Source: Tubulanus polymorphus
Lineage: Eukaryota; Nemertea; Palaeonemertea; Tubulaniformes; Tubulanidae
Reading direction: 5' to 3'
Assembly: GCF_964204645.1 (NCBI RefSeq)
Contig: NC_134026.1
Coordinates: 1,612,001-1,676,000 of the forward strand
DNA: 64,000 bases
Shown: piece after piece, positions 6,660-50,579 of the stretch
How the letters are laid out: every line of letters starts with the position of its first letter
Position numbering within the stretch: position 1 is the stretch's first letter
Program-made: the position numbers and the translations under genes
The notes under the pieces: generated by a model
What the model saw: the letters and a program-made list of their open reading frames with translations, nothing else
Databases searched by the model: none
What the model was told of the DNA's origin: nothing

Positions 6660-9600
6660 ATGTATGGAGAAAACGTCGAGAATATTCCACCAGAAACGTT
6701 TAAAGTACCAACCGTTCCAAACATCCAAACACCGCCATCATCAGTAGAGAGCTCAATTCTAAAACATTCTACTAAAGATAACCTCATAGCTTTCTCACCA
6801 GCTCCTAAACACTTGAAGGTATGCCACAGTTTTTCAAAAGTCGGTTAAAATCGACCATCAGTGACCATCAAAACTTCACTATTTGCAGACAAAGCAGTTT
6901 AACAGTCCTGAATTGAGATAAATTCATTCCAACTCTGAATTGTGAAACTGGGTCCCGAGTTACTTTAACCAACTTTTAAGCGACTATCCCTCGCGTGATT
7001 CTAATGTTATGTGATAGAGAATGTATTCTCCGGAAACCATGTCTATACGGTTGAAATTTCGGATAATTTTCAGGTCCATTTTTTGACGCCGAAGCAAAAT
7101 TCCGTGAGACGATATTCGCCGGAAAAACCTGCGTCGGAATTATCGACGATAGATTCACCGGATTGGTATAATTTCATCCGTGAGATCGACGATCAAGAGA
7201 AGTGGTGCGAACGCACGGAAGTAGTTACAAAACGGGATCATACTGAAAACGTTGTTATTGCTCAATCAGTAATTCAAGAGATTATTGATAATTTACCTTT
7301 AAGGTATTATTTTACGATTATTTGAAGCTTTTATTATAAAATCTCAACCTAATCGGCAAAACCAACAGTTGATGATTTAACAATTTATTTTCTGACAGTT
7401 TCAAAGTTTTGACTAAACTTCATAATCAGAGAAATGAAAATAACACAATACACTGTACTGATATACAGCAATTTAAAAATGTAGATATTACTAAGGAAGG
7501 AAACTGTTATATCTTCAACTATAGGTTTTGCTCATTAACTTGGAAACACTAAGATTATCGTAATAACAGTCTACCTGTCAAAGCTCAACTAGTACTAAGA
7601 CTACATTATGTTATATCAGAAAATCTATTATTATGATTATAATTAGAAGCATGTATCTCCAAAGTTTTGGTTTATTTTCAGAGATTCAGCGAATAAAACC
7701 GGTCGTTTAAGTGATTTGAGTAACGACAATTGTGACACAACAATGGCCGACGATGACGAAATCATTCCGCCGAAAGCTTCGTATAATTTCAACTTCGACG
7801 ACATCGATTCGATCGATCCGTTCACGTCGAGTAAAGGTTTAGCTAATTCTCCGCCGGCGTCGTCTGCCGCGATAATCGAGAATCCGTTCCAGACGAAATC
7901 GAAGGTGTCGTCATCGCCACCGCCGGACGCCGGGTTTCACGACGATAATATAAATCCGTTCGCGAGCAGAAGACAATTACCGAACTCGCCGCCGCCGCCG
8001 ACGATGAAGGGTGATATTACGAGCGAAGAAATGTCGAATTCAAACGTTGAGAATTCTTCGTCGTCCTCGTTGAAAGGTTTTCAAAATGTAACCGATATAA
8101 ACGATAATGAGAACGGTAATAAAAACGGAGCCGCAGCCGGAATGGATACGAGTTGCACCGGTTCGGATTTATCAGTGAAATCTGACGACAGTAAAGCCAG
8201 TTCTACCGGATCTGAGTAAGTATCGTTAACACGATAATCTGAGGCAATCGGTGGCAATCTGTCTACTGTACTGACATTTTATTGGACTTGGTACAGGGTG
8301 GCCACGTACCTGGAAATCAGGGAATTTTGTATAAAGAAAAAAGTGAAAAATCAGGGATAAATCGGGGAAATTTCATTGCCAGGAGATTGCTAGAATTGAT
8401 TGGATTCTTAGCAGATCAAGTCAGGGAAAACAACGTGCAGTCAGGGAAAAGTCAAATCAGGCCATCCTGTTTTATGTTCATACCAGTGCATGGTATATTA
8501 TTCTTGTCTGTTATGCATGGGATTATTATTTTGATATTACGGAAATAATGTAGTCCACATTTAGGCTAAAAAATCTGATACCTTGTTTCTCCTAATTGGC
8601 CAATAAACGACAATAAAAATTAGTAATCAGTTCATTTCTAAAGCTGCCGGTCTATTATGGTTAGCTTGATCATGATTGCAGAGGGTAGATAGGCGGCCGG
8701 ATGGTTAAACTTTTAAGCTCAGCAGATGGAGAAACGAGATATCAATTTTTTTTAAGCCTTAGCATAGATGTTTTTCAGGGAGCAATGATCATGTAGTAGG
8801 TCATTTTGTATTATTAGGTTCTAGTGATTCTTTTTAATTTGTATCAACATTTCACTCGATGTCTCATATTTGTGGTGCCGTGTTTTTTGCATTGTAGAAA
8901 AGTTGTCAAAAAGAAATCACCACCGAAAAAGAAGGGCCCTCCGAAGAGATTCCTACAAGCAAATAAGGTGATTATTGATTATCGGACACAACTGAAAAAA
9001 ATAATACTGGAAATAAGATGCCATGGTACATGACATAGACAGGGTTCTTAAAGATCAGGGAATTTCGACTCTATTTCTTGAAAGTCGGGGAATTTGTATT
9101 TTTGGTTCCTTGTTGTTCTTATTGGTGATGAGCATTACAAGAAATAACCAGGGAAATTATCCATCAAAGGTCAGAGTAATATCAGGGGATTTTGGATTCC
9201 CAAAAACTAAATGATTCCTTGTTTCTCCTAATCGACTGGGTCACTTTAGTAAACTGAATTGCGAATTTGACCCGGCCTGAATAAATTATATTGCTAATCA
9301 GGCCGGGTCAACTTTTAAGCTCAGCAGAAATGAGAAGGTGTCAATTGTCAGTTTCAGCCTAATCTGTTAAATCCCTTCATAGACGTTTGAATATTAATTT
9401 ATGTGGAATTATTTCAGAATTTTCTCGCTGCGAATCAAGCAAACGACGATGTCATCATATTCGATCCGAAGTCGAAGCGTTCTTCGGCCGCGGCATCTGA
9501 TCGAATGGAAACGTCGAGTACGGCATCGGTTGCGTCCGATGCCGCGTCGGAGACCGGTGAATTACCGAGCTGTACCGCGGCGTCGACCGTCGCGAAGGAG

Positions 9601-12600
9601 ATCGTTTGCGACGATTTCGACGCGTTGCTACGACCGACTAAAGACGTACAAATAGCCTCGATGACCGAGTTCGATACAGCTGGCATTTCCGTGTTCTCCA
9701 GTACAGTGATGAGTCAGGAGGGATTGGGATCTTTTTCCGAAGACGAATTCAAGTCTGCGACGGAAGGTAAGCATCGTAATATGTGAACGGACCCCGTGCT
9801 GCACCAGCTATCCTGATCCTGCTAGATGATGCGTGTATCAATAGGACAAATCAGTTTTGAGGAATTTTCATCTATTAGCCTTGCACCTTAGAAATAAGAC
9901 AAATCATGTCTCTTCAAAGACTCGCGTTCAATGTTTATTGCGCAATTGTTATCTGTTATATGTACGTATTGAATTAAAAAAATCATTGATAGATTTTGAT
10001 TGAATCTGAGAAGAAATCCAGGCGTCACTTTGAGCATGTACCTGGTAGATCCTCGCTTGCCTCACACAGAATCCTCAACTGCCACAGTCAACCGTAGAGT
10101 CCTCATTGAAGTGAATTAAATTCTTGCAATCGCGGTCGTTCGATGTTGTTACAAAGGTAGAAATTATTAGTAGCAGCTATCTGGTGCAAAATGCTTCCTG
10201 GTTGTGTGAGTGTCATGTTTGTGTGTGCTGGTTCTCTTTCAATTGTTCAGTCATGGTTTGTTGATTATTTGATGGCAATATTTCATGAAATCAAATCACT
10301 ATCTATTATAGCCTTACGTAGTGTGTTTGCTGTTGATGTGTCTACTCAACTCTTAGGCAGTTACTGTCTACGAATATCAAACCAGGTCAACTGCCTACGA
10401 ATTCCACGAAAAACAAATATCATTAACGCTTTAAAAGGGATATATGTATGAATCATATATAAATACTAGTTATGTATGGTAGTTGTCTCCGTTGTGAGGG
10501 CATCATTAGGATTGTAATGAGATTAAATAAATGGATTATCTCCGTGGATTATCTCGATATGTAGAAGAGACAGGTGCTGTTTCGTACTGATGTCCGATAT
10601 ATTTATACATCGATAACCGACAGCTGTGAAAACTCTTGTGCCCCTTCGTTAGTTTTTTACGTGTTATCAATGGCGGTCACAGTTTTAAGCTGGTTTTCTT
10701 CGCTGATCTATCCTTCATTGCTCACGTCTATAGTAGCCGTGTTGGTCGTATTAGGAATCAATGCTGTGAAATGGATTTCAAAAGGTACGTAGGCGATTTT
10801 ATAAAAATAGATACGACATTGAACTGAGCTGATGAGTGATCTCATAGAAGGGGGTTGTGGGCGTACAAGGATATGCCATTAGTTTAGTTGTTTGGTAGTT
10901 TACTCGATGATATGATAGGCTTCAGAAGTTTTCTAGTTCATGATCATTTGTCAGTCTTTAGTTTCTGATTTGAACTAAAGGTGGCGGTCGGTGTTGCGTA
11001 TGATTACCACCAGTTGAGTTGTTTTGATGGCGTCAATGCTCGAGTGCATTATTGTATAAGTCCGTGACACGATTGTATTGATTTTCTGTTGAAGAATATC
11101 AATGAGTTTTGTTTTCTGAAATGACTGATATTTATTTGTACATGATTGATACTGTCGTTGTGACATTGTATCGGAAATCATCAGCCTGTGACTCGAAGCA
11201 GTTTCAACGGTCTACCGCTTCTAAGTAGTATTATTGTCCATGGTTTGAATTTCACTCAATTTCTCATGTTGTCATTGTACCCATGCCAGTGTTACTGTAC
11301 TTGTGAAGTGTTATTAGCGAACCTTTTTGAGAAACACAAATTCATGGCTTTGATAACAAGTAAGTCATTTGACCGCTGAAAGAAGTTTCATGTTATCACC
11401 GTTGATAAAACACTATATCCTTGTTGTGACGATAATATACATAGAATCCCACAACGATATGAAACGAAAAACAAAGTCCAAAAATGTTGTCTAGAGCCAG
11501 TAGTTGATTCAACGTTTTGACTATATTCTAATAGTATTCCTAGTATTAATATTAGTGGTATATCGGTATAAACTACTAACCCTAGGATACATTTCCAGAC
11601 ATATTGTCTTTCGATACAATTGTGGGATTCTTTCTATACTAGGTTAGATATATCTACCTTTCCCTGTCTTGTTCAAATTTTCATCTGAAGGGATCCCATT
11701 CTTAGGTCAGACTTCAGGCGCTATGTGGCGCTAGTGTTATTATGGTTAGGTTAGTTAAACCTATATTCGAACATATAAACTGTAGTTGCTGTATAGTAGC
11801 CGTTGAAATAGATGAATGTCGATTGTCTGTTTGTTATTCTCATTGACGATGCAGAAACTGTCATCTCTCCGATCAGAGAATGCCTGAATATCTATCGTTA
11901 GGCGTTTAGTTAAAATTCTGGCGTCAGTAAGATATGTTTGATAGCGCTGGGCTGCGTGGAGTAGCTGCCGTACTCTGATTGGTATTCTATCGAGATAAAC
12001 CCGATCTAATCTGATATCGTGTTGTAAACGTTCTCCGGCGAGGATGATAAAGAAATTTTTCTCACGTAGAAAGAACATTCTGCCCGACAACAAAGCAATA
12101 AGTGATAATTCAGTGTTTTTATCAGTTGTTGCATTGCGAAATCATTAATAATCTCTACAAGCGAAGGGGACTCGTCAGACCATTTGTGTTCACGCAGTAA
12201 CTTTGTTTATAGCTTCAATTGAGAACAATTTTTTATGTGCATTTATTTTTTTATTGAAGTTCCCGGCGAGAAAAAAAGGTAAAGATCGAAATGATATCGG
12301 ATTGTGATCGCAGTTCTACGGATCAAGGAATTTCGAATTTACCATTTCTTACACGGACAATCAGGGAAACTTGACTCTTTCCTTGAAAATCAGGGAATTT
12401 GAATTGTGATGACTTGTACTTGCCGGTGATGAGTGGCACAAGGATCCTCTTGATAAGAAACTTCCCCTGCTCTGAGGATATCTTAATTTAATCAGGGACT
12501 TTTGGTCTTGTGTTAGGGAAATATCTGAGAATATTGGATTCTCTGATCCATAAGAAGCGTAGATGTAAAGTTTCTCTGGCATAAAGATCGAAATGAAAGC

Positions 12601-12706
12601 TGATTATAATCCACAGCGTTTGGTAGTTATAATTCTCTAGAGTGGATGTTGTATGTTGTACATTGTCGGGTGTTTAACCACTGTGTGTTGAGATCGTTGG
12701 ACTGGT

Positions 12707-12774
<68 letters not shown>

Positions 12775-15700
12775 CGCTCTCTGTCTCGTTGTTGCGGTTA
12801 ATGCGCGATGATCGTTGAAACTACTCGCGGAATCGAACCTTGTTTAGATGGATACATCCCTCACGGTGGTGACAACGATGAAACGTCATCTCTACGTTTG
12901 ATAACGGTTCGCCCCCCTGCGTCTCGTCCTGCGGCGATCTGTAGAATGGATTTACGCGGTTTCTGCGACTGTTTACTGTCATCAACGTGTATGATTTTGA
13001 TGGTTCTATCGTTTATGTCGCCGGTTTTACTGTATATGATAATCGTACTGGTACGGTGGGCGTAGTAACGATGATAAACACCGGCTATTGTTCGGTGAGG
13101 CCCGCGCCGTGCCGCTCTCGTTTCACAGGTCGTCCTCGCTCGTTCCGGTTTCAAGCAATTGTGGATAACGCGCGGTTGAAAGGAAAGACGCGAGACGCGC
13201 CGATGAAGTCCACCCAGCCCTGATATCGTGATATCGTCGAGTTTTATTCGATTTTTATGCGTCTCCTCTCGAGTGTTTACAGCATCATTAGTTCGTTCGT
13301 GTAGTTATTCCCCGACGGCCGTCTTCGTTTCATCGAAATGAAAAATTTATGCATTCGCACTTTTTGTTTCTGTAGATAGAGTTTAATTACGTGTATTTAT
13401 TTTCATAAAATGATTCTTCAGTTTTTCGTTAACTTTTTTGACGAAACGATCGAATCTATTCGAGAGAATTGATTTAAAAAGATTCAATTCGTTATTATCA
13501 AAATCCACGGAAACTGATTGCGATCGATCTACGCGGCTTGACAAGCGGAAAGTACGCGTGGTCCTCGTGATTGCGTGATCGGTGAATCACCCGTGATCAG
13601 ATTGATGTGAATCGTTGAATTGATCGGCGGACAGTGTTTAATCAGTGTTGTATTCTCAGTGAAGATAAAGCGATGGATTTTCATGCGTTCTGCGACTGTT
13701 TGTTATCTTCTACTTGTATGATATTGATGGTTCTATCGTTCATGTCCCCGGTTTTGTTATATATGATTATTGTGCTCGTTCGATGGGGTTGAGACGACGA
13801 TCTCCGCGCGTTTATATCAAACAGGTGAATATAATAAATACATCGAGTTCTCATTTCCGATCTAGAATCGACCAAGCGCTTCGAGTCTGCGCTTAATTGG
13901 TCCGTTTCATTTTTTAACAGACCGGTTTAAACCGATCCAGATCCATTCTAAATTTTAGAATCGACAATTTCTTAATGTATGAATAAAAAGTCGTCAGTGT
14001 TTAATCTTGGATCGGTGATGAAAGCGGATTTAAAAACAAAGTGTCAACGCACAGCATTGATTTGGTCTGTTCTAGATCGATTATTAAATTCAGGTACGGG
14101 CCGAATCGGAATGGACTAATTACCGAATCTGAATCTGACTTGTAAGTGTTGTTTCATGCTTTTTTTTCAAGGAACTGTTGTCCTTTATATTTAGAAGCTG
14201 GCTTTTGAGCTTCTTTGTACAACTGGATTGGTGTTTATCCGATCAAATCTGTACATCAGTTATGATTGTGGCATTTGTTTCTTAATCCAGTCTTGATTGC
14301 GATTTCATATTTCAAATGCTGAAATTGTAAAATATGTAGTTTGTTAGTTCAGGTAAATCAGGTTTGACCAGTCCAATTAGATCTCATTTCCCACTGAGAA
14401 GATGAATCCCGGTGTTTCAAAATTCATAATTCACATTAATGTCAGGATACAATAATAGGCATCTACCGTTTGGACAGATACGTCTCTGTGTATGGATAGC
14501 TAGTGATATTTGGTATTGCGTATGTCAGACAAAGTGACGTTATTCAGGAAATCATTCTGTCACCGAATGAGTTCGATACAAATAGTCATCGTAATGAGAA
14601 TGTGGAGTCACGCGGCCGAGCATTATTACTGATCACCAAATCAAATATAGACGCTTCACTAAGTACTGTTTACGTATGCATGGGGAAAAATATATACCGC
14701 GCATAATTCCCCGGGCTAATTCACTTAGCATCGCCTTCATCGGTCAGCAGCACATTCATCGGTCAGTCATCTAGCAGCACATTCACTGGTCAGTCATTTA
14801 GCAGCAGGTTCACTGGTCAGTCATCTAGCAGCACATTCACTGGTCAGTCATTTAGCAGCACGTTCACTGGTCAGTCATTTAGCAGCACGTTCACTGGTCA
14901 GTCATCTAGCAGCAGGTTCACTGGTCAGTCATTTAGCAGCACGTTCACTGGTCAGTCATCTAGCAGCACGTTCAATGGTCAGTCATCTAGCAGCACGTTC
15001 ACTGGTCAGTCATTTAGCAGCACGTTCACTGGTCAGTCATCTAGCAGCACGTTCACTGGTCAGTCATTTAGCAGCACGTTCACTGGTCAGTCATCTAGCA
15101 GCAGGTTCACTGGTCAGTCATCTAGCAGCACGTTCACTGGTCAGTCATTTAGCAGCACGTTCACTGGTCAGTCATCTAGCAGCAGGTTCACTGGTCAGTC
15201 ATTTAGCAGCACATTCACTGGTCAGTCATCTAGCAGCACGTTCAATGGTCAGTCATCTAGCAGCACGTTCACTGGTCAGTCATTTAGCAGCACATTCACT
15301 GGTCAGTCATTTAGCAGCACGTTCACTGGTCAGTCATTTAGCAGCACGTTCACTGGTCAGTCATTTAGCAGCAAGTTCACTGGTCAGTCATCTAGCAGCA
15401 CTTTCACATTGGTGAAAAGTGCAGTTAAAGTCCTACCTGAATTGGTCCTGTCCATTTTAGAATAGAAGACAAACAAAGAATTCTGATCCAGGTTTATTCA
15501 ACAATTTTGAAATTATCATGTATGGATAGTGCAGGTCTGGTTTGGTTCATTCTAAATTGGTCCATTCCTGATGCGGCCCGAATTAGAACATACTAACATC
15601 ATGTTCTTTACTATTTCATCATCAATTGAAAGGAATGCACAGAATCAGTATATTGATGATAGGGACATGTGAACAGTGCCTGTATAGGCTGTACGATCGC

Positions 15701-18700
15701 TGGGACTTCAGACTCCTTAAGAGTTACAGTGAGGAATTGTGTGAACGTGGTTCATGATTATAGGGCTTTATTCTAATTGTAGTGTTATGAAATGGGGTAT
15801 TTTACATAGATAGTCAAAAATATATCTTATTATTATATGTAAAATACCCCATTATGAACTTGCAGGAGCCTCCAGTGTCTGGTATATTCATCGCTCATTC
15901 CATATACTAGTAGTTAGTTAATAAGGCAAAATAAAGAGCGGCAGTTCACAGTAAACGCACCTCCGTGTGATGATTGGCGTTGATTGAATGAGGAAATGAA
16001 ACAATTATTAAGAATACATCGCGGTGTTGGTCGGGTTTGCTGGTGATGTATTCTCGCTCAACATTACCGCTCATCTATACTCTGCCTGATACAATGTATT
16101 GTCAGAGAGAGACACAGAAAGACAGAGAGTTGTGCAATTCAATATTTTGATTAATGATGATGTTAAATCCACCAGTTGTGGCGATGCTCGATTGATTTTA
16201 TTTTTCTCGTCGCCGCGCGTTACATTACTCGAAGGGGATACGCGCTTATGAAAATTTATTCATTCGATTTCGAAAACTGATAAAACTGTCGGTGGTCGGG
16301 TTTTTATTTCAAATTAACTTTGTCTAATCAAATCTATAGCAGTGTGAGTCTGAGTGTGTGTCTTCATCCGCGGTGTTTTTATAAAGCATGCATTGCATGC
16401 GGTATTTCTCGAAAAAATATTTATTAGCTATCATCAGGGGGCTGTGTTCGTTGATTAGGACATTAAGCCTGTCACAAAATATCTCATTTGGACGAAGCAA
16501 ACATCGCTGTCAAGTATTCCCTCGACTATTGTAGTGAAATGCTGCCCGGTAATTTGCTTTTAAGTAATAAAGTGTCCTTCAATAGCTGAATAACTGCTGA
16601 CCGTCGATTAAGTATCGGAAGCTTTTATATCGTGAATCAGTTGTGAATTCTCGCACAAGTGTCTATTTGTATGAATTCAAATCAACACTTCACTCACATC
16701 AGATGAATTGGTTGTTTGTCCGGTGTAACAGTGTCGCTGTATCAGACATTGAATCTAGAGGATCCGATGAAACTGGTGGCGTCTTGGAGTTATCAGGTAT
16801 CAGAGAATCGCTATGGTTACTGTCTCAGGGTATTGCCACGTTAACTAGACCTGTATCAGGGTATCATCGTGGTGTTTATCAGGGAATCGTCATAGTAACT
16901 GGCTGTATCAGGGAATTGTCATGGTAACTGGCTGTGTCGGGGATCAAATCTGCCATCATTGAGTTAGATGATTATTGTATTACTCGTTTTCGTAGAATAT
17001 AAAAATTATCGGAGTGTGATCAATAATTATCTGATCTGAGTGTGATCAATGATTTATTCCGGTTTATCCAACACGCGAATGATATTTACTATCATCATCA
17101 TCATCATCGTCATCGTCATCGCTGGCAATCGTGACTGAAATATAGCGAGTCGAGTGAGTGAATGATTCCTCGTTGTCGGTCTCTAAATGAAATATTGTAT
17201 CGTCGACTCTTGTTACATTCGATAGGCTCATCAGCTGAGTAGAGGCAAGAGGCGCGCACAAGAGACGTTTTGATTGCTGAGGTACGCGAATCATCGAACG
17301 TCTTCCGTTTAACTCCTCGTCTATATCCTCGTGTATATCCTCGTGTGTATGTGTGCAGAATTGCGACTTGTTCATGTGCAGGTGATTGATGATAGAAATA
17401 AAGCTGTGTTCGGATTCGTTGACAGTCGACAAACAGACGACTGTAGCACGCGAGCACGCAGACACTGAAATGGATTCAGTATCAGGAGACAATGTGTCTA
17501 TATCTACAGGTGACTCAACCCGGTTTAATCCGTGAATGATGACTGAACTATTTTATCCCGACGGAATCATAAACATCATAAACATCCCGTGGCTAATTTA
17601 CGCTCTCTCTGTCGATAGTTGAGCCGAAAGCCGGTCGTTTGCGATGCCGTATTTTTCTAATGATTGTAGCTACACGGCGACGTTTCTCGTCGACGGACAT
17701 CGTTGTCGATCTCGGCGGTCGTTTCGGATTTGACGCTGTTTCGATACCGACGTCGGTTCGACGACGGCGGGTAATAGACAATCATCGCTAACTTTTGGCC
17801 CGGTCGACTCGTCCCTTCTGGGACTAGTTCGCTGCTGCTCGAGGATAACAGCTCCGAAGATCCGGAAAGCGTGGAACTGTTCGAGTTTAGTTCATGCGGT
17901 GATATGCCGACAGGATCGGACTCGGTTCACGTGTTAGTCCCTAGTCGGACTAGCGATTGTTTATACGGACGGTATAGTCCGTATATCTGTTTGCGTAGTA
18001 GTTTACAGTTAACATGTACCTGTGTGTTAGTGTTATCGTTCATGGCTCCTATAATTCTCTATATTACGTTGGCTTTCCTCAACTGGCCGTAGGTAAGCCG
18101 GTGTGTATGTTTGTCACTTTTATCTTTCGTCAATCTTGATTGTCTTTTGTAAAAACTGTTACCCGTACATAATGCGGTTATCTAATGCTGAGTAGTCGAT
18201 GTACATTACGTAAGTCATCAATATTGGTGTTTCAAAATAACGATAACAATTGCGTGTATAAGCATTTATTATGTAATTTGATAAATGACTCTCTATTTCC
18301 TAATTATTGAATTTTCATGTTTTTTAACCCTTTCAGTGCGTCTACACTGCAGTGCAGTGTATTAGTCGGTGATGGACTAGTACTCCGCACTGCGTTGATA
18401 TAATTAATAATGCTTAATTACTCATCACCGAAAGGGTTTTAATAGCAAGGTTATATATGTAATATAATTTATATATTCATTCTTTCATTTTGCAGTGTTC
18501 AGCGATCCGTCAGCATGGGATATGCTAGAGAAGTTTGGTGAGGGTAATTCTGATGTACGTATATTCGGTATTCAGTGTGAGTTCGCTGTGTTCGGTGTGA
18601 TTTCCATCCATCGAAATAAAAACCCACAATACGAAATAACATGATTTTCATCGCTCGAAATGTTGCCTGTATTTATGCGTTGATACAGAAAATGCCGTTG

Positions 18701-21700
18701 ATGAATTCGACTTATGGATAAAGCCATGCGTTGAAATGTCTCGGGAATGACGACTATTAACTCGCATTAGGGATTTCTGTAATTCAATTGTAGACAAATG
18801 ATCGTGATGAAATTGCGTTATTGATTGCGCTTTATACGAGTCTGCGGGATTAGCTCGCATCGAAAATTTATGAAGACGGCCAAATCATATTTACTTGAGA
18901 CTGCCGATTTATTCTAAAGTTTATACAAAGCTGAAATTTGATATTCAATCGGTTGTTAAATTACTGTGTTCCTCATGTCATAATCTTCAGTAGAAACACA
19001 AATATCATTGCTTTGTATTTGAATTTGTTGTCCAAAATCACGGTTATGCCACTCAGACTGCGATGTTTATTTTGTGGGTTTGTTAATCGTGTCTTATTGT
19101 GTTTTTTTGGGGTTATTTTTCTTTGCAGAATCCCGATTCCGCTCTTACCCGGCAATCGCTGTACGTAAAGTTCGATCCATTAGTCCAGGGAGATGATAAA
19201 AGTCCCGGCAATGTCGGCGTTCTTCCAAATCCAAGAGTACAAGGTAAAGTCCCTCGTGTAACCTTGTGGATAACTTAGATTCTTAAAGAATTGGCCAAAT
19301 ATCGAAAGGAAACATTTTGCTCCTTACGTCAAACATTTTATGTTTGTAATAATGATCACATTCGTTTGCATATAGACTCCATATAAACTACTAGACTGTC
19401 TTGTTAAAGAGAACATAATAAGCATGATGAATTTTATCAATTTTACTAAGAGAGAATCTCTGAAAAGTGACGAAATTTACATAAGGGAAAGATAACGACA
19501 AAGGCCTACTAACGATAGGCCTAGTAAAAATTGGCAATGAATATTGAATGATGTGTTACTTTCAGGACTGGCGAAGAAGACAAGTAACAGCCAACTGGCT
19601 TCACTTGCAGAAAAGTAAGTATCATTAAGGGACGTAACTGTGGTCATAGTCTTAAACTATTAGTTTTATGGTCTCGTAGCTCCTCATTTATCTAATTGGA
19701 TAACAGTTGTTGATCGTATCAGTTGTCCGAGTGGTCAGTTATATCTGAGAGGGGGGCCGACCTTGCCGGTTATATATCGACTTCATTTACACAGTATGAC
19801 GACGACGCAATGGTATATATCTCATCTCGTTTCAGCCCGAATGCATCGGTTTATAGCGAGGATCTTCTATTGATGAATACACCACCTCCTAATAAACCAC
19901 TATCGCGTCTTAAACAACTGCAAATGGGTCAATCGAGACTCGCCCCTCAACAGCCGGCCAGCGATCTAGATAATATTTTGACGTGTAGTCCAAAACTCGA
20001 TGAAGAGGTATGTATATTAAAGCGTCATACATGTATTCGCAACAAAAATCAATTTTATCTTCCCCGAAACTATCCGCTGACTGCACACGCGCGCACAGAG
20101 TACCGGTATATGGTAGGAATAATAGTAGGAATAAATCTCTGAATCTGGCGTGTGAATAGTGCTTGTTTTATTTCACATGACTGCGTGTTGTCATATAAAA
20201 TCCTCTTATGTATGTCTGACTTATATATTCCCCTAGATCATTATTACACGGAGATTATCATCCGTCCGTCTGTCTGTAAATCATAGAGAAGATTTCTATT
20301 ACTTTTCTAAAACACAAAACTCATATGAGAATCATTAAGTTTTATGCTGTTTTTAGTGTTTTATCTGGTAGAAAAATTCAGGCTTCAAGTCGCAGTTTTG
20401 TCTTAACTGCTGAAGGAAAACATATTTTGCTTATTCGATCTGATTTATTTCACCTGACCGTCATAACATAAACTTATTTCATTCTAAATCGTTGATGTTA
20501 CCGTCAATGTTGTTTTCTTCAACGGAACCACCGGGGCACTCTATATACATATTTGTTTGTTTTTACCTCATGTGCATCAGACATGCCATTCTGATTTAGC
20601 GATCGTAGAACCGCCCGAGTATTCAACTCGCGCCGCCGCAGCCGCCGACGAGTGGGTCGAACAGATCAACAGTTTTTCCGAGCTCGAGGATTCCGCCGCT
20701 TTGTCGCAAGATTCGCTCGAGTGTATATCGTGTACGTGGGGCACGGAGACCGGCCGACCGGATAGTCCTCTACAATTCGACCACGACGAAGTCGTACATA
20801 TAGACGTCTGTGATAGCATTAGCGAATTGAGAGATGACACAGATGTAGGTTTACGCTCTACTAACGGCATTCATCCTCGTAATTCTAGACGTTTTGATAA
20901 ACAGCCGACTACGATTGGTTCACATCGTTCTTATACGCGTCAAACCCATTAATCATACATAACGTTTGTAGTAAAATAGCTACGATCAGACGTTGAACGC
21001 GTTATATACAAATTCAAAAGATTTAAGTAGAAATTTATGTATCAAGAATTAAGATCAGAAGTGATAACGTTTCTGACTTTCACTAGAGACCTGTGTCGGG
21101 TCCGAAATGTTGTGCGTATCTTCTCATTTTAATTCTTGATAATCGATTTTTGATTTCAATCTTTTACAATGTATACAGTGGATTTTAACCGTATCATTGA
21201 TTATTTATATTTATCGCTAGCTTGAATTCGACGAGAATAATGTTTTGGGGTTGATATTCCTTCCTCGTGCTTAATGGCTGAAAAATGTGCTCCAAAAGCA
21301 GACGGCTGTTTCACTGGATTTTATGTTCACACCTCTGGCATGGTTGTTAGTTCTTCGACTGCATGGTTTCCATATTCGTCTGACCCGCTCTCTCTACCTC
21401 TACCTCTTATTTCGAGCTACGTTCATTATTTTTGTATGTCTGATGCTGTCGTCGTTTTCGTTTTCTTTCACATTCATTTTGTTGAAATCATGGTCTCGGA
21501 ATATCAAATGTTCTTACGTGTAGCGTGTTTAAACAATCGGTTCCATTTCCTCAGATGTGTAAAATTTTACTCTCTAACGCGTTTCTGTCAACTACGAGAT
21601 ATCTCGTAGTTCCATTTCAGCCATCATTGTCACTATGAGTTGTTGTAGGTGATCCTTCTTATTCACGGTTTGATATGAGCTCTCTGGTAATCGGAATGAC

Positions 21701-24207
21701 ACATCTCCCGATTGACTGGCAATGTGAATAAAATCTGCTTCATTTTCAATACTCATTGATCAACTTATGAAAATGGCTGACTATGAGATAACTTGTAGTA
21801 GTGACTGGGAAGAAAGATGGTGGCAGTGAACGTGTTGAACAGAGTTAAACCCGTTCATATCAATTTGACCCTCAAGTCAAACTGCCGAACTGATCTCACG
21901 ATTCTTACGCAACATTTCTCAAACATCACAACCCATCTGTTGATTCGATAGGTTAATTTAGAAATGTTTCATCGTGGTATGACATTGATTTAGTCATTAC
22001 AACTCCATAACGGCACATGTTGTAATAATAAATCAAGAATCTGCGTGAAATCGAATTAGACAATGCCTGAATTAGTTTCGTATATTCGTAACAAACTGAA
22101 ATATTGTTGATCATATATTGATTATATGTATATATCTAACAGTGTTTAAACTAGTACATGTATACTCAGGGATCAGTTATACTGATTTATTCCTAAAACC
22201 TGGAAATCTATCTATGTGGTATGTTTTTCTATCATTTATACATCTAAAGGGGTACATTGTAAACTACTTTGAATTAATCTTTATGTATAAATGTAAACAC
22301 TCATTGCTTTAGTTTGTAAGGGTTCTAATCAAATATTTTAAGTTTCATTTCATTTATCATAGTTTTGATTTGCAATCCCTTTTATATTCTCTCTATTAAA
22401 TGCTTTGGTGTTATGTTAGTTAAAGGATGTTGTTAATTATTTGTGACTGGGTCAATCAATTCTGGTTTTCAGTGCTATGTGGAGGCCATTTATGAGTAAA
22501 ATGTGTTTTTTCAAATGTCGCAATCAACAAAGCGTAAGATATCAGATTTTCTGAAATCCTTTTTTGGCCTGTCTTTGCTGCATTTTTGTAACAAGTATTT
22601 TCCAGGTGAAGTTCTAGTTTCATGGTACTTCTGTGTCAGTATTCTATTCCTGCCAAAATGCACAATGCTCTTCTGTGCCTTATGATAAAGAAAATTCACA
22701 TCTTTCATCCACAACCATATCGCTGGGAACAAGTTATTATTTTTATTGAACTATTCATAAATCATTGGATCATACAGAGTTGATAGTTGTCCGTGAAGTA
22801 CATATTCACCACTAATAATCTTTATAAAGTTTACTTGTTTTGAATATTACAGAACCAAACAGACAGTGGTCGTCCAGAGAGTGAGACGCCTTCTAAACAT
22901 GATTCCGTCGAGCCATCGAGAGCGGGAACCGGTATTGTTGAGGTATGTAACCCCGGTAACCAATAGTGGCTTCAATTGTGCGACCAAAATAGAGGAATTA
23001 CTATCTAATATAACGTGTATGCTTCAGGTCTTGAAATACACAGAATCCGACTTCAAAAAATTAAAGCAACAAATGGAGATGGACTTCCAAGCGCAGTTAT
23101 TGGCTAAAGAACGTTCGTGCTACAAGAAAGTGCAAGATTTGCAGCAGGAAATTGCTAAACTTACTGAAGAAAATAAAGCATTGTCAGAATCAGTTGATAA
23201 CATGACGTAAGTAGCTTTATTTCTATCGATAGACTTCGCTACCGAGTCGCCATCTACCGAGAAAAATGAGTAGCTTTAAAGTAAAATGTGTTTTCTTTTC
23301 GTTTTACAGAAAAGTGGTCGCTGAATATGAGAAAACTATATCCCAAGTTATTGGTAAGTTAAGGGTAAATGATACGAGTTATCAGTTATGTCGTGTTTAT
23401 AAGTCTAATAACTGTATTTTTTCAATAGCTGATAAAGAAACGGTCAGCGCTTCTTCGGCTGAATCAATGACAGAATTAATTCAGGAACGAAATCATCTGA
23501 TGGAAAGTTTACAGTCGATGGAAAAAGCATTTTCAGATATGTTGAAACGACACGACAGGTCGAAGGAGGTCGTTGAGAGTCAAAAGAAGGTCGGTTTATA
23601 ATAACTCTCATTGTGTACTGGTTTCCCACCGCTGTTCGATGCGTTCCTATTTCAAGTATCAATGTTTAATGTTTTTAGAATGAAGAACAACTGAAGAAAT
23701 GTATTACTGATTATCAAGAGAAGATGAAGAAAGCAGAAACGAAATACCAGGCGCTTAAACGGCATGCTGAAGAGAAATTAGTAGCGTAAGTACAGAGCTT
23801 GTCGTTAATGGAAATTTGAGCATTTTTAACCGCATTTGGATGGATTTACTAACCTCATCAGGTTCATAGATTAGTTTAAACAACGTTCTTTGCCTCAATA
23901 TTTATGGCCTATCTGTGTATGTTGTTTTTAGGGCAAGTGAAGAAATAGAAAAAGTGACAAAAAGTAAAGATAACGAATTGACGCGGTTACAATTAGCCGT
24001 GAAGAAATCCGAGGTTCAAATTAAGAGCTTAGAAACAGCTGTCGCTCAGAAGGTAAATTCACCGTCTGCCGTGCGGCATCAAATACTGAGCTGTTTCAAG
24101 CGGACATATTTTTACTGTATTGCTTTCGATTTCAGACGAAAGAAAACGAAGAACTGACTTCAATCTGTGATGACTTGATTTCACAAGTAGGAGGTGGTGG
24201 AAGCTAG
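6660..24207 (+). CDS. TACC: TACC family protein (transforming acidic coiled-coil containing)
   Basis: Centrosome and spindle microtubule regulator; family members bind XMAP215/chTOG through the C-terminal coiled coil and are regulated by Aurora A. Coding exons, phases all agreeing: 6660-6818, 7074-7303, 7682-8215, 8898-8967, 9418-9766, 18496-18554, 19129-19243, 19566-19614, 19836-20007, 20581-20844, 22853-22942, 23028-23206, 23310-23353, 23429-23589, 23679-23785, 23932-24052, 24136-24207; 2,775 nt, 924 aa. Residues about 697-924 form the TACC domain, with [20 protein letters not shown] and ICDDLISQ as in vertebrate TACCs. Upstream are SDP/SPIM-like motifs ([23 protein letters not shown]), a basic KKK patch (exon 4) and the family motif [11 protein letters not shown] (exon 7). 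The N-terminal half is acidic and Ser/Pro-rich. I chose the ATG at 6660; an upstream ATG at 6650 is out of frame and soon stops. Intron 5 (8.7 kb) holds candidate alternative first exons. Confidence 0.93.
8294..8471. mobile_element. CAGGGTGGCC-ended MITE
   Basis: Short inverted termini CAGGGTGGCC and GGCCATCCTG bound a segment with several internal TCAGGGAAAA-type motifs. It lies in TACC intron 3 between exons 3 and 4. Related sequence rich in TCAGGGAATTT recurs near 9035-9200 and 12,350-12,560, with less clear ends. The open frame running through it is a by-product. Confidence 0.55.
8561..8762. mobile_element. MITE family A, copy 1
   Basis: Inverted ends of about 33 bp (left: TTAGGCT...GATACC-TTGTTTCTCC; right: GGAGAAACGAGATATC...AAGCC) enclose a middle containing GGGTAGATAGGCGGCCGG and AACTTTTAAGCTCAGCAGA. 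The same element recurs at 9202-9362 and 30854-31061. No coding capacity. Confidence 0.6.
9023..9200. repeat. Relative of the CAGGG-rich repeat
   Basis: Contains ACAGGGTTCTTAAAGATCAGGGAATTT and further CAGGGAAATT and TCAGGGGATTT motifs, as in the element at 8294-8471. The termini are not clear. It lies in TACC intron 4, directly upstream of MITE family A copy 2. Confidence 0.4.
9202..9362. mobile_element. MITE family A, copy 2
   Basis: Shares the left end CCTTGTTTCTCCTAATCGAC, the internal GGGTCAACTTTTAAGCTCAG and the right AGAAATGAGAA with the copies at 8561-8762 and 30854-31061, with a middle deletion. It lies just upstream of TACC coding exon 5. Confidence 0.55.
10670..10784 (+). CDS. Candidate alternative first exon of TACC encoding a membrane anchor
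   Basis: An ATG opens 38 codons, then a good donor AAAG|GTACGT follows in phase 1. TACC exon 6 (18496) needs exactly a phase-1 partner, so this exon could replace exons 1-5. The peptide is hydrophobic from about residue 3 to 33, with Leu/Val/Ile runs and a terminal AVKWISK, which would make a signal-anchor in front of the [14 protein letters not shown] segment. A TATA-like TATTTATA lies about 65 bp upstream. Phase and donor are seen; transcription is inferred. Confidence 0.4.
11443..11631. mobile_element. Foldback element with degenerate hammerhead-like core
   Basis: Imperfect inverted arms begin AGAATCCCACAA on the left and end TTGTGGGATTCT on the right, about 25 bp each. The minus strand of the centre reads TATAGTCAAAACGTTGAAT, the same block seen at about 37,046-37,081. 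It lies in TACC intron 5. Confidence 0.5.
12335..12560. repeat. CAGGG-rich dispersed repeat
   Basis: Contains ACAATCAGGGAAACTTGAC, AAATCAGGGAATTTG and AATCAGGGACTTTTG, resembling the element at 8294-8471. The termini are unclear. It lies in TACC intron 5. Confidence 0.4.
12709..12775. repeat. (TC)n microsatellite
   Basis: About 31 uninterrupted TC dinucleotides, then CTCTCGCTCTCTG. It lies about 35 bp upstream of the open frame that contains micro-ORF A, so it may belong to a polypyrimidine promoter or 5' UTR. Confidence 0.95.
12946..13065 (+). CDS. Micro-ORF A: 39-aa hydrophobic peptide in a TACC intron
   Basis: An open frame of 39 codons plus TAG. A polar start with CDC and SSTC is followed by a hydrophobic segment of about 20 residues with [11 protein letters not shown], ending in RW-Ala-stop. 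The frame is open further upstream to an ATG at 12808, which would give 85 aa. Micro-ORF B at 13673 encodes 35 of the same 39 residues although about 17 codons differ silently, so the peptide is probably translated and conserved. The flanks of A and B do not align. It may be a stand-alone membrane micropeptide, or an alternative terminal exon adding a membrane anchor to TACC. I do not recognise the family. Confidence 0.6.
   Translation: MDLRGFCDCLLSSTCMILMVLSFMSPVLLYMIIVLVRWA
13673..13792 (+). CDS. Micro-ORF B: paralogue of the 39-aa hydrophobic peptide
   Basis: It has 39 codons and TGA and differs from micro-ORF A at residues 3, 4, 5 and 39 only, while most other differing codons are synonymous. 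The stop is at the same place but uses a different codon (TGA against TAG). A possible acceptor, TATTCTCAG, lies 13 nt before the ATG and leaves the frame open. A weak phase-1 donor, TGGG|GTTGAG, lies at the end. Predicted topology: short polar N-terminus, one transmembrane helix, one to three residues after it. Function unknown. Confidence 0.6.
   Translation: MDFHAFCDCLLSSTCMILMVLSFMSPVLLYMIIVLVRWG
14735..15410. repeat. 27-bp tandem minisatellite, about 25 copies
   Basis: The unit is roughly TTCACTGGTCAGTCATCT then AGCAGCACG, alternating between ATCT and ATTT variants and ACG, AGG or ACA endings. Because 27 is divisible by three, one frame stays open for 146 codons as a 9-residue repeat, but there is no other sign of coding. 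It lies in TACC intron 5. Confidence 0.95.
15791..15853. repeat. Perfect 17-bp inverted repeat hairpin
   Basis: AATGGGGTATTTTACAT (15791-15807) and its exact reverse complement (15837-15853) are separated by 29 bp of AT-rich sequence. TACC intron 5. Confidence 0.9.
16780..16935. repeat. Degenerate tandem repeat, about 29 bp
   Basis: Repeated phrases of the form TATCAGGGAATYGTCAT then AGTAACTGGCTG occur about five times with drift. TACC intron 5. Confidence 0.6.
17389..17509 (+). CDS. Possible alternative first exon, 40 codons
   Basis: An ATG is followed by 40 open codons and a donor CTACAG|GTGACT in phase 1, matching TACC exon 6. The end of the peptide is acidic and Ser-rich ([13 protein letters not shown]), like other TACC N-termini. 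An in-frame stop just upstream means it can only be a first exon. Evidence is frame and donor only. Confidence 0.2.
17904..18092 (+). CDS. Micro-ORF C: diverged third copy of the hydrophobic peptide
   Basis: The frame is open from at least 17778; the first ATG gives 62 aa. The last 30 residues match the micro-ORF A/B pattern: TC[14 protein letters not shown], then hydrophobic residues, Trp, one residue and a stop. TAG is followed directly by a strong donor, CCGTAG|GTAAGC. The upstream part is polar, with Ser, Glu and Asp ([11 protein letters not shown]). It lies 400 bp before TACC exon 6 in CpG-rich sequence typical of exons here. It could be an alternative exon or a separate small membrane protein; the start is uncertain. 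Confidence 0.45.
   Translation: MPTGSDSVHVLVPSRTSDCLYGRYSPYICLRSSLQLTCTCVLVLSFMAPIILYITLAFLNWP
18326..18440. mobile_element. MITE family B, copy 1
   Basis: Starts AACCCTTTCAGTGCGTCTAC and ends CACCGAAAGGGTTTT, so the ends are inverted. The motif CTACACTGCAGTGC is shared with the copy at 42028-42164. It lies in TACC intron 5 about 55 bp before exon 6. Confidence 0.6.
20845..22852 (+). other. TACC intron 10, no further exon seen
   Basis: A 2-kb intron between phase-0 exons. Apart from the foldback at 21041-21140 I see no coding signal; the open frames around 21.3 and 22.2 kb are Phe/Leu-rich and lack splice context. Confidence 0.5.
21041..21140. mobile_element. Foldback element with GGGTCCGAAATGTT core
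   Basis: Left arm ATCAAGAATTAAGATCAGAAG pairs imperfectly with right arm CTTCTCATTTTAATTCTTGAT. The loop holds a small GACC/GGTC stem followed by CGAAATGTTG, resembling the cores of the elements at 39.2 and 56.7 kb. TACC intron 10. Confidence 0.45.
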
Positions 24208-47133: not shown

Positions 47134-48090
47134 TTATTTGTCTGAATTTCTACCACAGATTTTTGCACAGAAATATTCACGTATTTCTCGTCCCAGTAAG
47201 AGATATATGTAAAAATTCATGGCATAATTACAAACATGGAACTGAAGGAATACATCATGAAGAAATTCTTTCTGTTCCGTGGAGATTGGTAAGAATACGG
47301 TAATAGTGGATGGAAGTGTAAATATTGCAAATGCGAGTGAAACTGTTACCAGCATTATTGTCGTACGTTTTGATTTGATAGTTTTCTGATCGGACGAAAT
47401 CATTTTTGAACCCCTGAATAACTGAACTATTATAACAGAATTTGATGTAATGATTGTAGTTAAGGGCAGGAAATAAACATAGACAACAAATGTCATGAAA
47501 TATTTAAGTTGTTCAATCAATTTATAGTAACATCCAAAAGCCTGGTCGGAAAAGTATATTGACATAGTTGGTAAAAGATTTAGAAGCAATGCATTCATCC
47601 CCATAATAACTAATATAACAATTCTCGCGAATGTAGGTGTGCACACCAAACGAGATGTGAACGGGAAGAGAACAACTGCCGCACGTTCTAGAGATATCGC
47701 TACTATTAACCAGGAACTGTTGCAGGACGTAAATGCCATTACAAATTCATAGATTTGACAACTGATCCGTGAATCCATCATGAATATTGCATCATCTTTA
47801 ACGTGCAAGAGAACAAACTGTAAAACCGGCACCAGCGTAAAATTGATGCAAAACGTACAATCACTGACGGACAAAACGATCAGATAGTTAGCGTAAGATA
47901 AACTCCGAAATCTGCGACTTATCATTATCAGGAAAGTAGCCGAATTTCCGAAAGCTCCTAACAGGAACAAGACAGGAAGAGTGGCTAATGAAAGCTTACG
48001 GTAGCTACCAGACCTGTTAACTACAGACATCAAGACGATGTAACTGTTATAAGTTCGAACAATCTGCATCTGAGTAGAATTCATGATCAA
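47134..48090 (-). CDS. Rhodopsin-like (class A) G-protein-coupled receptor, intronless
   Basis: 318 aa, single exon. A short N-terminus with an N-S-T sequon is followed by seven hydrophobic segments. TM1 has GAFGNSATFLI (conserved Asn), TM2 LSVSDC (conserved Asp), TM3 ends SLERAAVVLFP (ERA instead of DRY), ICL3 has KRTTIMLVTVSLAF, TM6 lacks the usual CWxP Trp (AIFTLP), and TM7 has NFYIYLLLG in place of NPxxY. The Cys pair is present (ISC in TM3, FGCYY in ECL2). This fits a divergent, lineage-expanded peptide- or chemosensory-type receptor; ligand unknown. MNSTQ two codons in is an equally good start. A broken paralogue lies next to it. Confidence 0.8.
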   Translation of the reverse strand: MIMNSTQMQIVRTYNSYIVLMSVVNRSGSYRKLSLATLPVLFLLGAFGNSATFLIMISRRFRSLSYANYLIVLSVSDCTFCINFTLVPVLQFVLLHVKDDAIFMMDSRISCQIYEFVMAFTSCNSSWLIVAISLERAAVVLFPFTSRLVCTPTFARIVILVIMGMNALLLNLLPTMSIYFSDQAFGCYYKLIEQLKYFMTFVVYVYFLPLTTIITSNSVIIVQLFRGSKMISSDQKTIKSKRTTIMLVTVSLAFAIFTLPSTITVFLPISTEQKEFLHDVFLQFHVCNYAMNFYIYLLLGREIREYFCAKICGRNSDK

Positions 48091-49061
48091 GTGAGACCGT
48101 AGTGAGTGTTGGGCGCGTCTATACTGACGATCTGAGAATATAATGGGACTGGATCCTCTACTCGTATATCGGAAAACTCATTTAGCGTGAAAGAGAAATA
48201 ACAGAAATAAGGTTTTTTTTATCATATTATCTATTGCTTTTCATTTGTAAAGATCTATCGTTGACAACGAATGGAAATCTAACATGATTAAATCGAATTT
48301 ATGAAACCTTACATTTGTGAAATACAAATATAACTAAATTAGATATATAAATCTCCAACAAAATGATTCTACATTGCGAAAATTAAACCTCCCAACAGAA
48401 TAGCAAAAATGCTTGCACTAAAGCAATTCGTTCCCAGAGGACAGGAAAATATCAGGAACTCGTTCATGCAGTATAATGTACAGTGAACCCCCGATATACC
48501 GCCCTCCCATTTACCGCCACCCCCGCCTGCCGCCAGGTTTTCTCAATGTACATTCTCTATACAAATACTAAAACACCCCGATATATCACCAAACTCTCTA
48601 TCGTTCTGCACCGATGTGGGCGGTATATCGGTGGTTGAATTTTAGTAACTTCCGAAGAACTGTTCAAAACTTGGTTCTTTGAAGCGGTGGACCTGAAAAT
48701 TGGAATTGGCTCTTAATTTGAAAAAGGTAGATTTAAAAATACGAGAGCTGCAAGCGGGAAGCATTGGTGGGGCTCTGATGGCCCTAAAACAGAAAATCAA
48801 AAATGGACTTTTGGTCCTTTATTTTGATTTATATTTTGTGTTCGTAAAATGATCTTCGCAAAAATGGTTTTAAGACTTTTCGGAGGGCACATTCAATTTG
48901 CCCTAAATCCGTCCTTGAAATTGAAACTCTATTTATTTCTTACCGCCATAGTTCAAAAACCTAATATCCATCGTCAGCATTTCCTGCACGTTGGACTATG
49001 AATAATCATAGAACTCGAGTTCTATGGAATAATCCATGGTCAAACTTAGAAGAATCAATGG
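48091..49061. other. Intergenic region between the two GPCR copies
   Basis: No gene seen. It holds the pogo/Tigger-like MITE at 48481-48645 and otherwise AT-rich sequence. It should contain the promoter of the intact receptor. Confidence 0.5.
48481..48645. mobile_element. Pogo/Tigger-like MITE
   Basis: Left end CAGTGAACCCCCGATATACC-GCC and right GGGCGGTATATCGGTGGTTGA are inverted with few mismatches. Termini of the form CAGT...GATATACCG are typical of pogo/Tigger-type elements, which is family knowledge. It is too short to encode a transposase. Confidence 0.6.
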
Positions 49062-50001
49062 TTATTTGTCTGTATTCCTACAGCAGATTTTCGCATAGAA
49101 ATATTCACGTATTTCTCGTCCCAATAAAAGATATATGTAGAAATTAATGACATAGTTACAGCATTGGAATTGAGTGAAAATATCATATAGAAAATCTCTC
49201 TGTTCCGTAGATATTGTCAAGAACGAAGTAATTGTGGTCGGAAAGGTAAATATTGCAAATGCGAGTGAAACTGTTACAAGCATTATTGTCGTACGTTTTG
49301 ATTTTGCCGTTTTCTTATCGGACGTAACCATTTTTGAACCTCTGAATAACTGAAATATTATAGCGGAATTTGATGTTATAATGAACGTCAAAGGAAGAAG
49401 ATTAACGTGGATGACAATAATGATGAAAAACGTTAATTGGTCAAATAATTCATAAAAACATCCGAAAAACTCATCAGGAAAATGAATCGATACAGTAGGA
49501 ATAAGATAAAGAAACAAACCATTCACTCCAATAATTAACGATGTAGAAATTCTTGCGAATTTCGGTGTACATATCAAACGAGATGTGAACGGGAAGAGAA
49601 CAACTGCCGCACGTTCTAGAGATATCGCTACTATTAACCATGAACTAGTACAGGCTGCCAGTGCCATTATAAATTCATGGATTTTACAACTGATGAGTGA
49701 ATTCATCAGGAATATTGGGCCGATATCCACATTCAAGAGAACAAACTGTAAGACAGGCATCAAAGTTAGATTTATGCAGTACATAAGATCACCGAGACAT
49801 AAAACGATGAGATAGTTGATAAACTGCGGAATCTGCGACTTGTCATAATCAGGAAAGTAGCTGAATTTCCGAAGGCTCCTAACATAAATAAGATAAGCAG
49901 AATGACCAATGAAAGTGTACGGTAGCTTCCCGACTTGTTTGCTAAAGACATGAGAACGATGTAACTACTATATGTTCGACCAATCTTTGAGTAAAATTCA
50001 T
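49062..50001 (-). pseudogene. Class A GPCR pseudogene, paralogue of 47134-48090
   Basis: The sequence aligns with its neighbour over the whole length, including GAFGNSATFLI, SLERAAVVLFP, KRTTIMLVTVSLAF and NFYIYLLLG. The frame breaks twice relative to the intact copy. Near the N-terminus (about 49,985-49,995) about 4 nt are missing after the MNFTQ start. Just after TM1 (about 49,812-49,823) about 7 nt are missing between RRFRSL and NYLIV. The two open pieces are 49062-49784 and 49772-50083. With two indels a pseudogene is likelier than an assembly error, though low-coverage sequence could mimic it. Confidence 0.75.
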
Positions 50002-50579
50002 GATTGCACAGGATCAAAATGCGCCGTGTGCAGAGCTGGCTCCTCGAATATTGGAAAATTAATTTTAAGTGATAGAAATCCACATAGATGTTATCGCCGA
50101 GTACATTTATTATTCATTTGTAAGATATGGTATTATCGACACGCTGCTCCGCTTGTTCATATTAATAATCAATTCTTTGAAAGTTATCACAAAAGTCTGA
50201 TTCATCAAATTTGTGAATGTTTTGTAAAGAAATCAAATGAAACGAAATGAAATAATTGATTGCTATCATGGACGTAGTCCGGTCTGATTTAAAGTGTGTA
50301 GTCTTTCACCCAGAGAACAACCAGAGAAAATTGAGAAGAGATCTAGCCCACAGGTTCAGTAGTGTTGATTGTACTATAAAATATTCTATTCTATTGATTT
50401 CCTGACGGTGTTTAGTATAAGCCGTGAGTTCATGGCGGTGCCAGCGGTCATCCCTGACGGTTTCTGACGGTTCCTAGCGGTGTCTGACGGTATTTAGTAT
50501 GACCGATCAGCCGTGACCGTGATCCGTAGATCAGGAACATGCTAATGGCTCAAGGTCGTTGAGCTGACAATCTGCAAAA
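50002..50579 (+). promoter_or_regulatory. Upstream region of TFB1M with CGGT repeats
   Basis: Between the GPCR pseudogene and TFB1M. From 50,405 to 50,517 the phrases CTGACGGT, TAGCGGT and GGCGGT recur, and a longer phrase (CTGACGGTRTTTAGTATR then CCGTGA) occurs at both ends as a direct repeat. It probably contains the TFB1M promoter; no TATA box is obvious. Confidence 0.35.

Follow-up and report, generated by a model that had tools for sequence, protein, structure and literature searches.

The window analysed here, 64,000 nucleotides of the nemertean Tubulanus polymorphus (contig NC_134026.1, positions 1,612,001 to 1,676,000), carries a TACC gene on its forward strand, recognized by Pfam TACC_C matches at 23425-23589 and 23679-23780. 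As we interpret the junctions, its upstream exons lie at 7682-8215, 8898-8967, 9418-9766, 18496-18554 and 19129-19243; the fourth of these, on the forward strand like the others, codes for 19 residues and has an acceptor score of 6.7. Splice sites were scored with an approximate matrix that was not trained on this genome. The accepted TACC donors ranged from 0.6 to 7.0 and one accepted acceptor reached only −0.1, so that the matrix cannot exclude low-scoring sites. A candidate alternative first coding exon of 40 bases, beginning with ATG and comprising 13 residues plus one base, was located at 17470-17509 on the forward strand. Its donor (score 4.9) is in the phase of the exon ending at 9766 and matches the exon starting at 18496, and its use would give a short TACC form. 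Neither RNA families nor tRNAs were found in the window. Two similar long frames that by eye resemble rhodopsin-type receptors, in tandem and apparently intronless, were seen on the minus strand at 47134-50113. Elsewhere in the genome, a second TACC_C match above the cut-off was obtained at G000:C7:740659-741024 (E 6.5e-6), which may be another coiled coil.

The TACC intron between 9767 and 18495 contains, in sense orientation, two micro-ORFs of 39 amino acids each, here called the twins. Twin 1 occupies 12946-13065 (start context agaATGG, stop codon TAG) and twin 2 occupies 13673-13792 (start context gcgATGG, stop codon TGA), both on the forward strand and separated by 607 bases. In twin 1 a further in-frame ATG at 12808 would give an 85-amino-acid form, the extra part of which lies outside the conserved region. 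An earlier sequence-only reading of this DNA had given these coordinates, lengths and frames, which were correct on recheck, and had placed the ORFs in a TACC intron, in agreement with the flanking exons and with the TACC_C matches downstream.

The twin peptides are identical at 35 of their 39 residues, as the sequence-only reading had counted, with differences at residues 3, 4, 5 and 39; codons 6-38 specify the same residues in both. That reading had put the synonymously different codons at about 17. The synonymous divergence stands, and the exact count is 16 of 39, with four further codons that alter the residue. The 117 nucleotides compared differ at 25 sites, distributed as 2, 3, and 20 over the first, second and third codon positions, respectively. 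When the same 25 base changes were placed at random, at least seven residue changes resulted in each of 200,000 trials, compared with the four observed. Since none of the 200,000 placements gave as few residue changes, the pattern is not attributable to chance. By the Nei-Gojobori method pS was 0.82 (saturated) and pN 0.044, and a pairwise codon model fitted by maximum likelihood gave an omega of 0.014, far from 1 (2dlnL 54.2 vs. omega = 1). Codon-model tests on more distant pairs of the family described below also favoured omega below 1 (2dlnL 7.9 to 31.8), the omega values beyond the twin pair being rough because synonymous sites are saturated. Purifying selection on the short twin peptide, which had been proposed from the twins alone, is thus strongly supported by the low omega, the saturated synonymous sites and the two further paralogues.

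The similarity of the twins at the DNA level is confined to the ORFs. With both placed in register, 20-25 of 30 bases match in blocks within the ORF and 6-12 of 30 beyond it. In addition, blastn returned a single strong alignment between the two regions (12946-13075 vs. 13673-13801, 78%), whose first base is that of the ATG and which ends about 10 bases beyond the stop codon. The 500-base flanks, compared upstream with upstream and downstream with downstream, had no common run of more than 15 bases (best E 0.03), which bears out the statement that they do not align. The stop codons lie at the same position and differ in sequence, as had also been noted. A recent DNA duplication had been rejected for these ORFs, and that view, too, is strongly supported. 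Judged from their sequences, the twins are old coding paralogues whose protein core was frozen while the DNA drifted apart.

Two explanations that would deprive the sense peptide of its role are nearly excluded by these comparisons. According to the first, the least probable of all the readings considered, the conserved product would be an antisense protein. One antisense frame is indeed open across twin 1 (147 codons), with 28 of 38 residues similar in twin 2, but this frame has a stop in twin 2, the sense frame retains 35 of 39 residues, 20 of the 25 changes fall at sense third positions and the alignment starts exactly at the sense ATG. All the other frames are less conserved than the sense frame (19/38 in each of the two other forward frames and 19/39, 28/38, and 20/38 in the reverse ones). 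According to the second, only barely more credible, the twins would be functionless remnants of a mobile element or a dead gene. It takes its support from a dispersed repeat at about 13855-14128, right behind twin 2, which has 21 other matches in the genome with 68-100% identity over up to 190 bases. However, the frames are intact with an omega of 0.014, and only four copies of the micro-ORF were found genome-wide. Moreover, a DNA search with 12600-14200, in which simple repeats and very common words were skipped, did not detect the DNA of the ORFs themselves in any other place. A long tandem repeat is also present in the same intron at 14707-15465, about 0.9 kb past twin 2; it is CpG-poor, was seen in translation and is open in two frames, one with a 10-residue unit and the other with RSLVSHLAA.

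The genome of the organism (267.8 Mb in 77 contigs, in an assembly that includes stretches of N) was searched for relatives, only the best candidates being scored, and the four members reported here are therefore the number found and not a proven total. The sequence-only reading had described a pair. With twin 2 as the query four matches were obtained: twin 2 itself (1.5e-19), twin 1 (2.8e-16), a stretch at C2:24361122-24361208 with 66% identity over 29 amino acids (E 1.4e-4), hereafter the fourth copy, and a stretch within the window at 18000-18086 with 41% over 29 amino acids (E 0.09), hereafter the third copy. The fourth copy used as query recovered the twins at 1.1e-5 and 3.2e-4, the third copy being absent from the matches; the third copy recovered the twins alone (E 0.21 and 0.28) and missed the fourth copy. 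Its ungapped identity is 12 of 33 residues with the twins and 9 of 33 with the fourth copy. The membership of the third copy is weak by E-value alone; it is favoured by its location in the same intron and on the same strand and by a stop codon at the homologous place. By simple arithmetic, the chance of a match of E 0.09 falling on the forward strand of that 8.7-kb intron is about 1.5 in a million.

All four copies carry the motif FM[SA]PxxLY within one hydrophobic helix interrupted by the proline. As a DNA pattern this motif gave six forward and no reverse matches in the 267.8 Mb, four of the six being the family members. The other two (L014 and L015) were rejected as members. They lie in frames of 24 and 31 codons with no ATG before the motif and with polar or charged residues close by, and they were counted as chance given that the reversed-pattern control yielded 2 and 2 matches. 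In the four-way alignment nine columns are invariant (C9, S12, C15, V20, F23, M24, P26, L29, and Y30), the invariance of C9 and S12 depending on a three-residue gap. The twins and the fourth copy, of 39-41 residues, have a well-defined start: the peptide opens with M-D or M-E-D, the base at −3 is A or G and that at +4 is G (aaaATGG in the fourth copy). They share a short acidic Cys-rich N-terminus, a predicted C-terminal transmembrane helix and the proline in FMSP. Within 250 bases before the start there are four upstream ATGs in twin 1, four in the fourth copy and one in twin 2.

No relative was recognized outside this genome in the collections searched, among which it was the only animal genome. 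Pfam gave nothing for the twins or for the 85-amino-acid form, and the values for the remaining copies were far under the cut-off (for the fourth copy DUF5345, E 0.69; for the third CENP-F, E 0.16). The prokaryotic library NCBIfam had no match for the family. In the PDB, twin 1 reached only DAD1 at E 5.8 and the family profile nothing at E up to 10. In viral contigs the pattern search picked up 12 stretches, none of them a relative. Among 11 pattern stretches of genome contigs, one from a Clostridia MAG (L009) showed 45% identity and E 8e-5, a value calculated for the candidate stretches only; this match falls in a bacterial frame of 325 codons, at codon 60, and was counted as chance. The peptide strings were not found in the literature searched, nor was anything relevant joining micropeptides with TACC, and within that literature the family seems to be undescribed.

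The third copy differs from the others in its setting. Read from an in-frame ATG it comprises 62 amino acids (17904-18092, forward strand), of which the core at about 18000-18089 is homologous to the twins, and it lacks the conserved start. Its frame is open from 17778 over 104 codons and ends with the helix and the stop. The stop codon, TAG, directly abuts a donor, GTAAGC at 18093, with a score of 5.4, a value of at least which is reached by 10 GT sites on the forward strand of the window. In these respects it resembles a spliced exon, and the contact between stop codon and donor makes this plausible. The sequence-only reading had offered a membrane-tail exon as one possibility. In a model of this kind, alternative terminal exons would equip TACC, or some other ORF upstream, with a membrane anchor at the C-terminus. 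The long open frame of the third copy and the adjacent donor are in line with it, and the candidate acceptors 17914 and 17938 would, by arithmetic, keep the phase of the exon ending at 9766 or of that at 17470; these acceptors, however, score only −0.5 and −1.2. In the twins and the fourth copy the ATG has a good start context, and the similarity of the twins begins there. Within the open frame of each twin there is a single acceptor-like site above −2 (12945, score 0.4; 13660, score 1.5), which by the same arithmetic would not match the phase-1 donor at 9766 in phase. Strong acceptor-like sites do exist upstream of twin 2, at 13129 (6.4) and 13376 (4.0), but there the frame is closed until 13619. 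Furthermore, the fourth copy lies 22.7 Mb from TACC, and a stop ahead of many later exons would invite nonsense-mediated decay. A membrane tail is disfavoured for the twins and unlikely as an explanation of the family, and what survives of the proposal is that the third copy is plausibly a spliced exon.

The surroundings of the twins offer signals for more than one kind of transcript. Both twins lie in a CpG-rich island at 12801-14000 (observed/expected about 1.8-2.0) on which fall three of the four highest values among 318 overlapping 600-base windows. A second CpG-rich island of the intron, at 17201-18200 (about 1.7), includes the third copy and the candidate exon at 17470. CpG-rich peaks were also found over TACC coding exons, at 7.4-8.4 and 9.2-10.0 kb, and are therefore not specific to promoters. 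An AATAAA at 13833-13838 on the forward strand, 40 bases past the stop of twin 2, may serve as a poly(A) signal if the twins are transcribed separately; after twin 1 there is no AATAAA and only weaker variants. A donor-like GT at 13825-13826 on the forward strand behind twin 2 (score 4.9) could be spliced to 18496. The two elements behind twin 2 would suit a separate transcript as well as a leader exon. Neither the poly(A) signal at 13982 nor the donor at 14094 was accepted as a gene boundary: both lie inside the dispersed repeat at about 13855-14128, and signals there carry little weight for that reason.

The fourth copy (C2:24361101-24361223, or positions 1480-1605 of L003 including the stop codon) follows a SOCS-box exon (E 1.3e-11) and precedes a Lyase_1 gene (E 1.4e-21); this gene we take to be argininosuccinate lyase from its GRSRNDQVATD stretch. 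Its ATG precedes by 817 bases the lyase ATG that we place at L003 2297. A 5' exon that contains the micro-ORF could be formed between the acceptors identified at L003 1247 (6.3) and 1377 (4.2) on one side and, on the other, a donor at 2234 (6.6), 63 bases before that ATG. The acceptor needed for that exon, at L003 2284, is below the cut-off of 2. A possible mini-intron of 50 bases was observed at L003 2234-2283, just before the presumed lyase start, its acceptor scoring less than 2. No CpG island was detected at this locus (0.38-0.76), and before the ATG of the neighbour there is no AATAAA, AATACA at most. Since the fourth copy adjoins a different gene, the peptide is not bound to the TACC locus.

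The third and fourth copies give the best support to the chief rival of a micropeptide acting in trans, which is that of a leader ORF acting in cis. The micro-ORFs would then belong to alternative 5' exons spliced to the TACC exon at 18496 and to the first coding exon of the lyase, and the nascent peptide, or its translation, would control the main ORF. All four copies are in sense orientation and upstream of a coding exon of the host, with donor 18093 at the stop of the third copy and a strong acceptor at 18496. The donor-like 13825 falls within the range of the accepted TACC donors, the acceptors and donor flanking the fourth copy are suitably placed, and CpG islands suit alternative promoters. 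Against it, the host genes are two and unrelated, the whole helix is conserved, the acceptor required at L003 2284 scores poorly and the highest-scoring donor in the vicinity of the twins (14094, 5.7) is the one inside the dispersed repeat. In addition, if the third copy is spliced to 18496, the first ATG encountered (18515) is not in the TACC frame, and the AATAAA lies within 40 bases of the stop of twin 2. With conserved peptide-encoding upstream ORFs the family shares a small sense ORF located upstream of a host coding exon and possibly on the same transcript; unlike them, related peptides stand beside two unrelated genes. We consider the leader ORF a serious rival, though one that is more probably wrong than right.

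As far as the structure of the peptide is concerned, mean hydropathy over 19 residues is 2.5-2.7 in all four copies. An AlphaFold model of twin 2, built on four aligned sequences only, has helices at 3-11 and 13-38 with a mean pLDDT of 84.6. These data uphold the single hydrophobic helix of the sequence-only reading, interrupted by the proline at FMSP, and correct the position of its tryptophan, which had been called C-terminal and is the penultimate residue, W38. Insertion of the predicted helix into a membrane would be consistent with hydropathy and model.

The micropeptides that act on SERCA, namely sarcolamban, phospholamban, sarcolipin, myoregulin, and DWORF, are very short and have one C-terminal membrane helix. 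The twins are likewise very short and have one predicted C-terminal helix; no credible PDB or Pfam match was obtained for them, in searches whose power is limited by such short sequences. More generally, the twins are ORFs of fewer than 100 codons under selection on the peptide and with a single predicted hydrophobic membrane-spanning helix, as in transmembrane micropeptides.

The nearest parallels are adjacent paralogous micropeptides. Sloth1 and Sloth2 of Drosophila (human SMIM4 and C12orf73) come from neighbouring small ORFs of the same strand that are paralogues, and a single transmembrane helix is predicted for each; they have 79 and 61 amino acids, are 27% alike, lie 5 bases apart on one transcript and are mitochondrial (PMC9681215). 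The sarcolamban locus also has paralogous small ORFs on one transcript (PMC9681215). As compared with Sloth1/2, the twins are similarly adjacent, paralogous and on the same strand, with one predicted helix, but have 39 amino acids, are 90% alike and lie 607 bases apart. Purriato, the Drosophila CG9034 family of Protostomia, comprises single-pass transmembrane micropeptides of arthropods, nematodes, annelids, and molluscs; the fly peptide has 77 amino acids, with its conserved stretches C-terminal and outside the helix (PMC10036370). The twins resemble this family in being micropeptides with a single predicted transmembrane helix. They are set apart from it by their 39 amino acids and by a helix that, in the model of twin 2, extends to residue 38, at the C-terminus. 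Tandem paralogous transmembrane micropeptides are a kind already known, within which this family seems to be new.

On balance, the twins are probably old tandem micropeptide genes nested in a TACC intron, whose predicted membrane peptides would act in trans. This reading is favoured given the coding selection on the helix, the two unrelated host genes, the good start codons and the hydrophobic C-terminal helix. Against it count the upstream ATGs, the AATAAA seen behind twin 2 only, the CpG-rich peaks over TACC coding exons and their absence at the fourth copy, the exon-like third copy with no conserved start, and the splice sites around twin 2 and the fourth copy that would suit a leader exon. 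Transcription of each twin would probably begin in a CpG-rich region of its own within the intron and yield either a short transcript for the twin alone or an alternative 5' exon. By analogy with known transmembrane micropeptides, the peptide may enter a cell membrane and pack against a membrane protein partner, and the fixed helix of codons 6-38 is in keeping with a surface that faces this partner. Two loci might provide an extra dose or separate regulation. Of the regulatory micropeptide suggested by the sequence-only reading, the micropeptide is favoured and the regulatory role is one that we infer.

A bolder and improbable proposal is that this is an undescribed, strongly conserved family of proline-kinked membrane micropeptides, for which two unrelated genes, TACC (centrosome/microtubule) and argininosuccinate lyase (urea cycle), provide alternative 5' exons. 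A promoter switch would then shorten the host protein and at the same time make a membrane regulator from one mRNA. If copies do sit in the 5' leaders of TACC and the lyase, this would be a micropeptide moving between host transcripts. Returning to the preferred reading of trans-acting membrane micropeptides, it must be considered that genes this short tend to be missed by standard annotation. A helix that stays fixed next to saturated synonymous sites, in a family for which Pfam, NCBIfam and the PDB gave no credible match, suggests a strict membrane partner.
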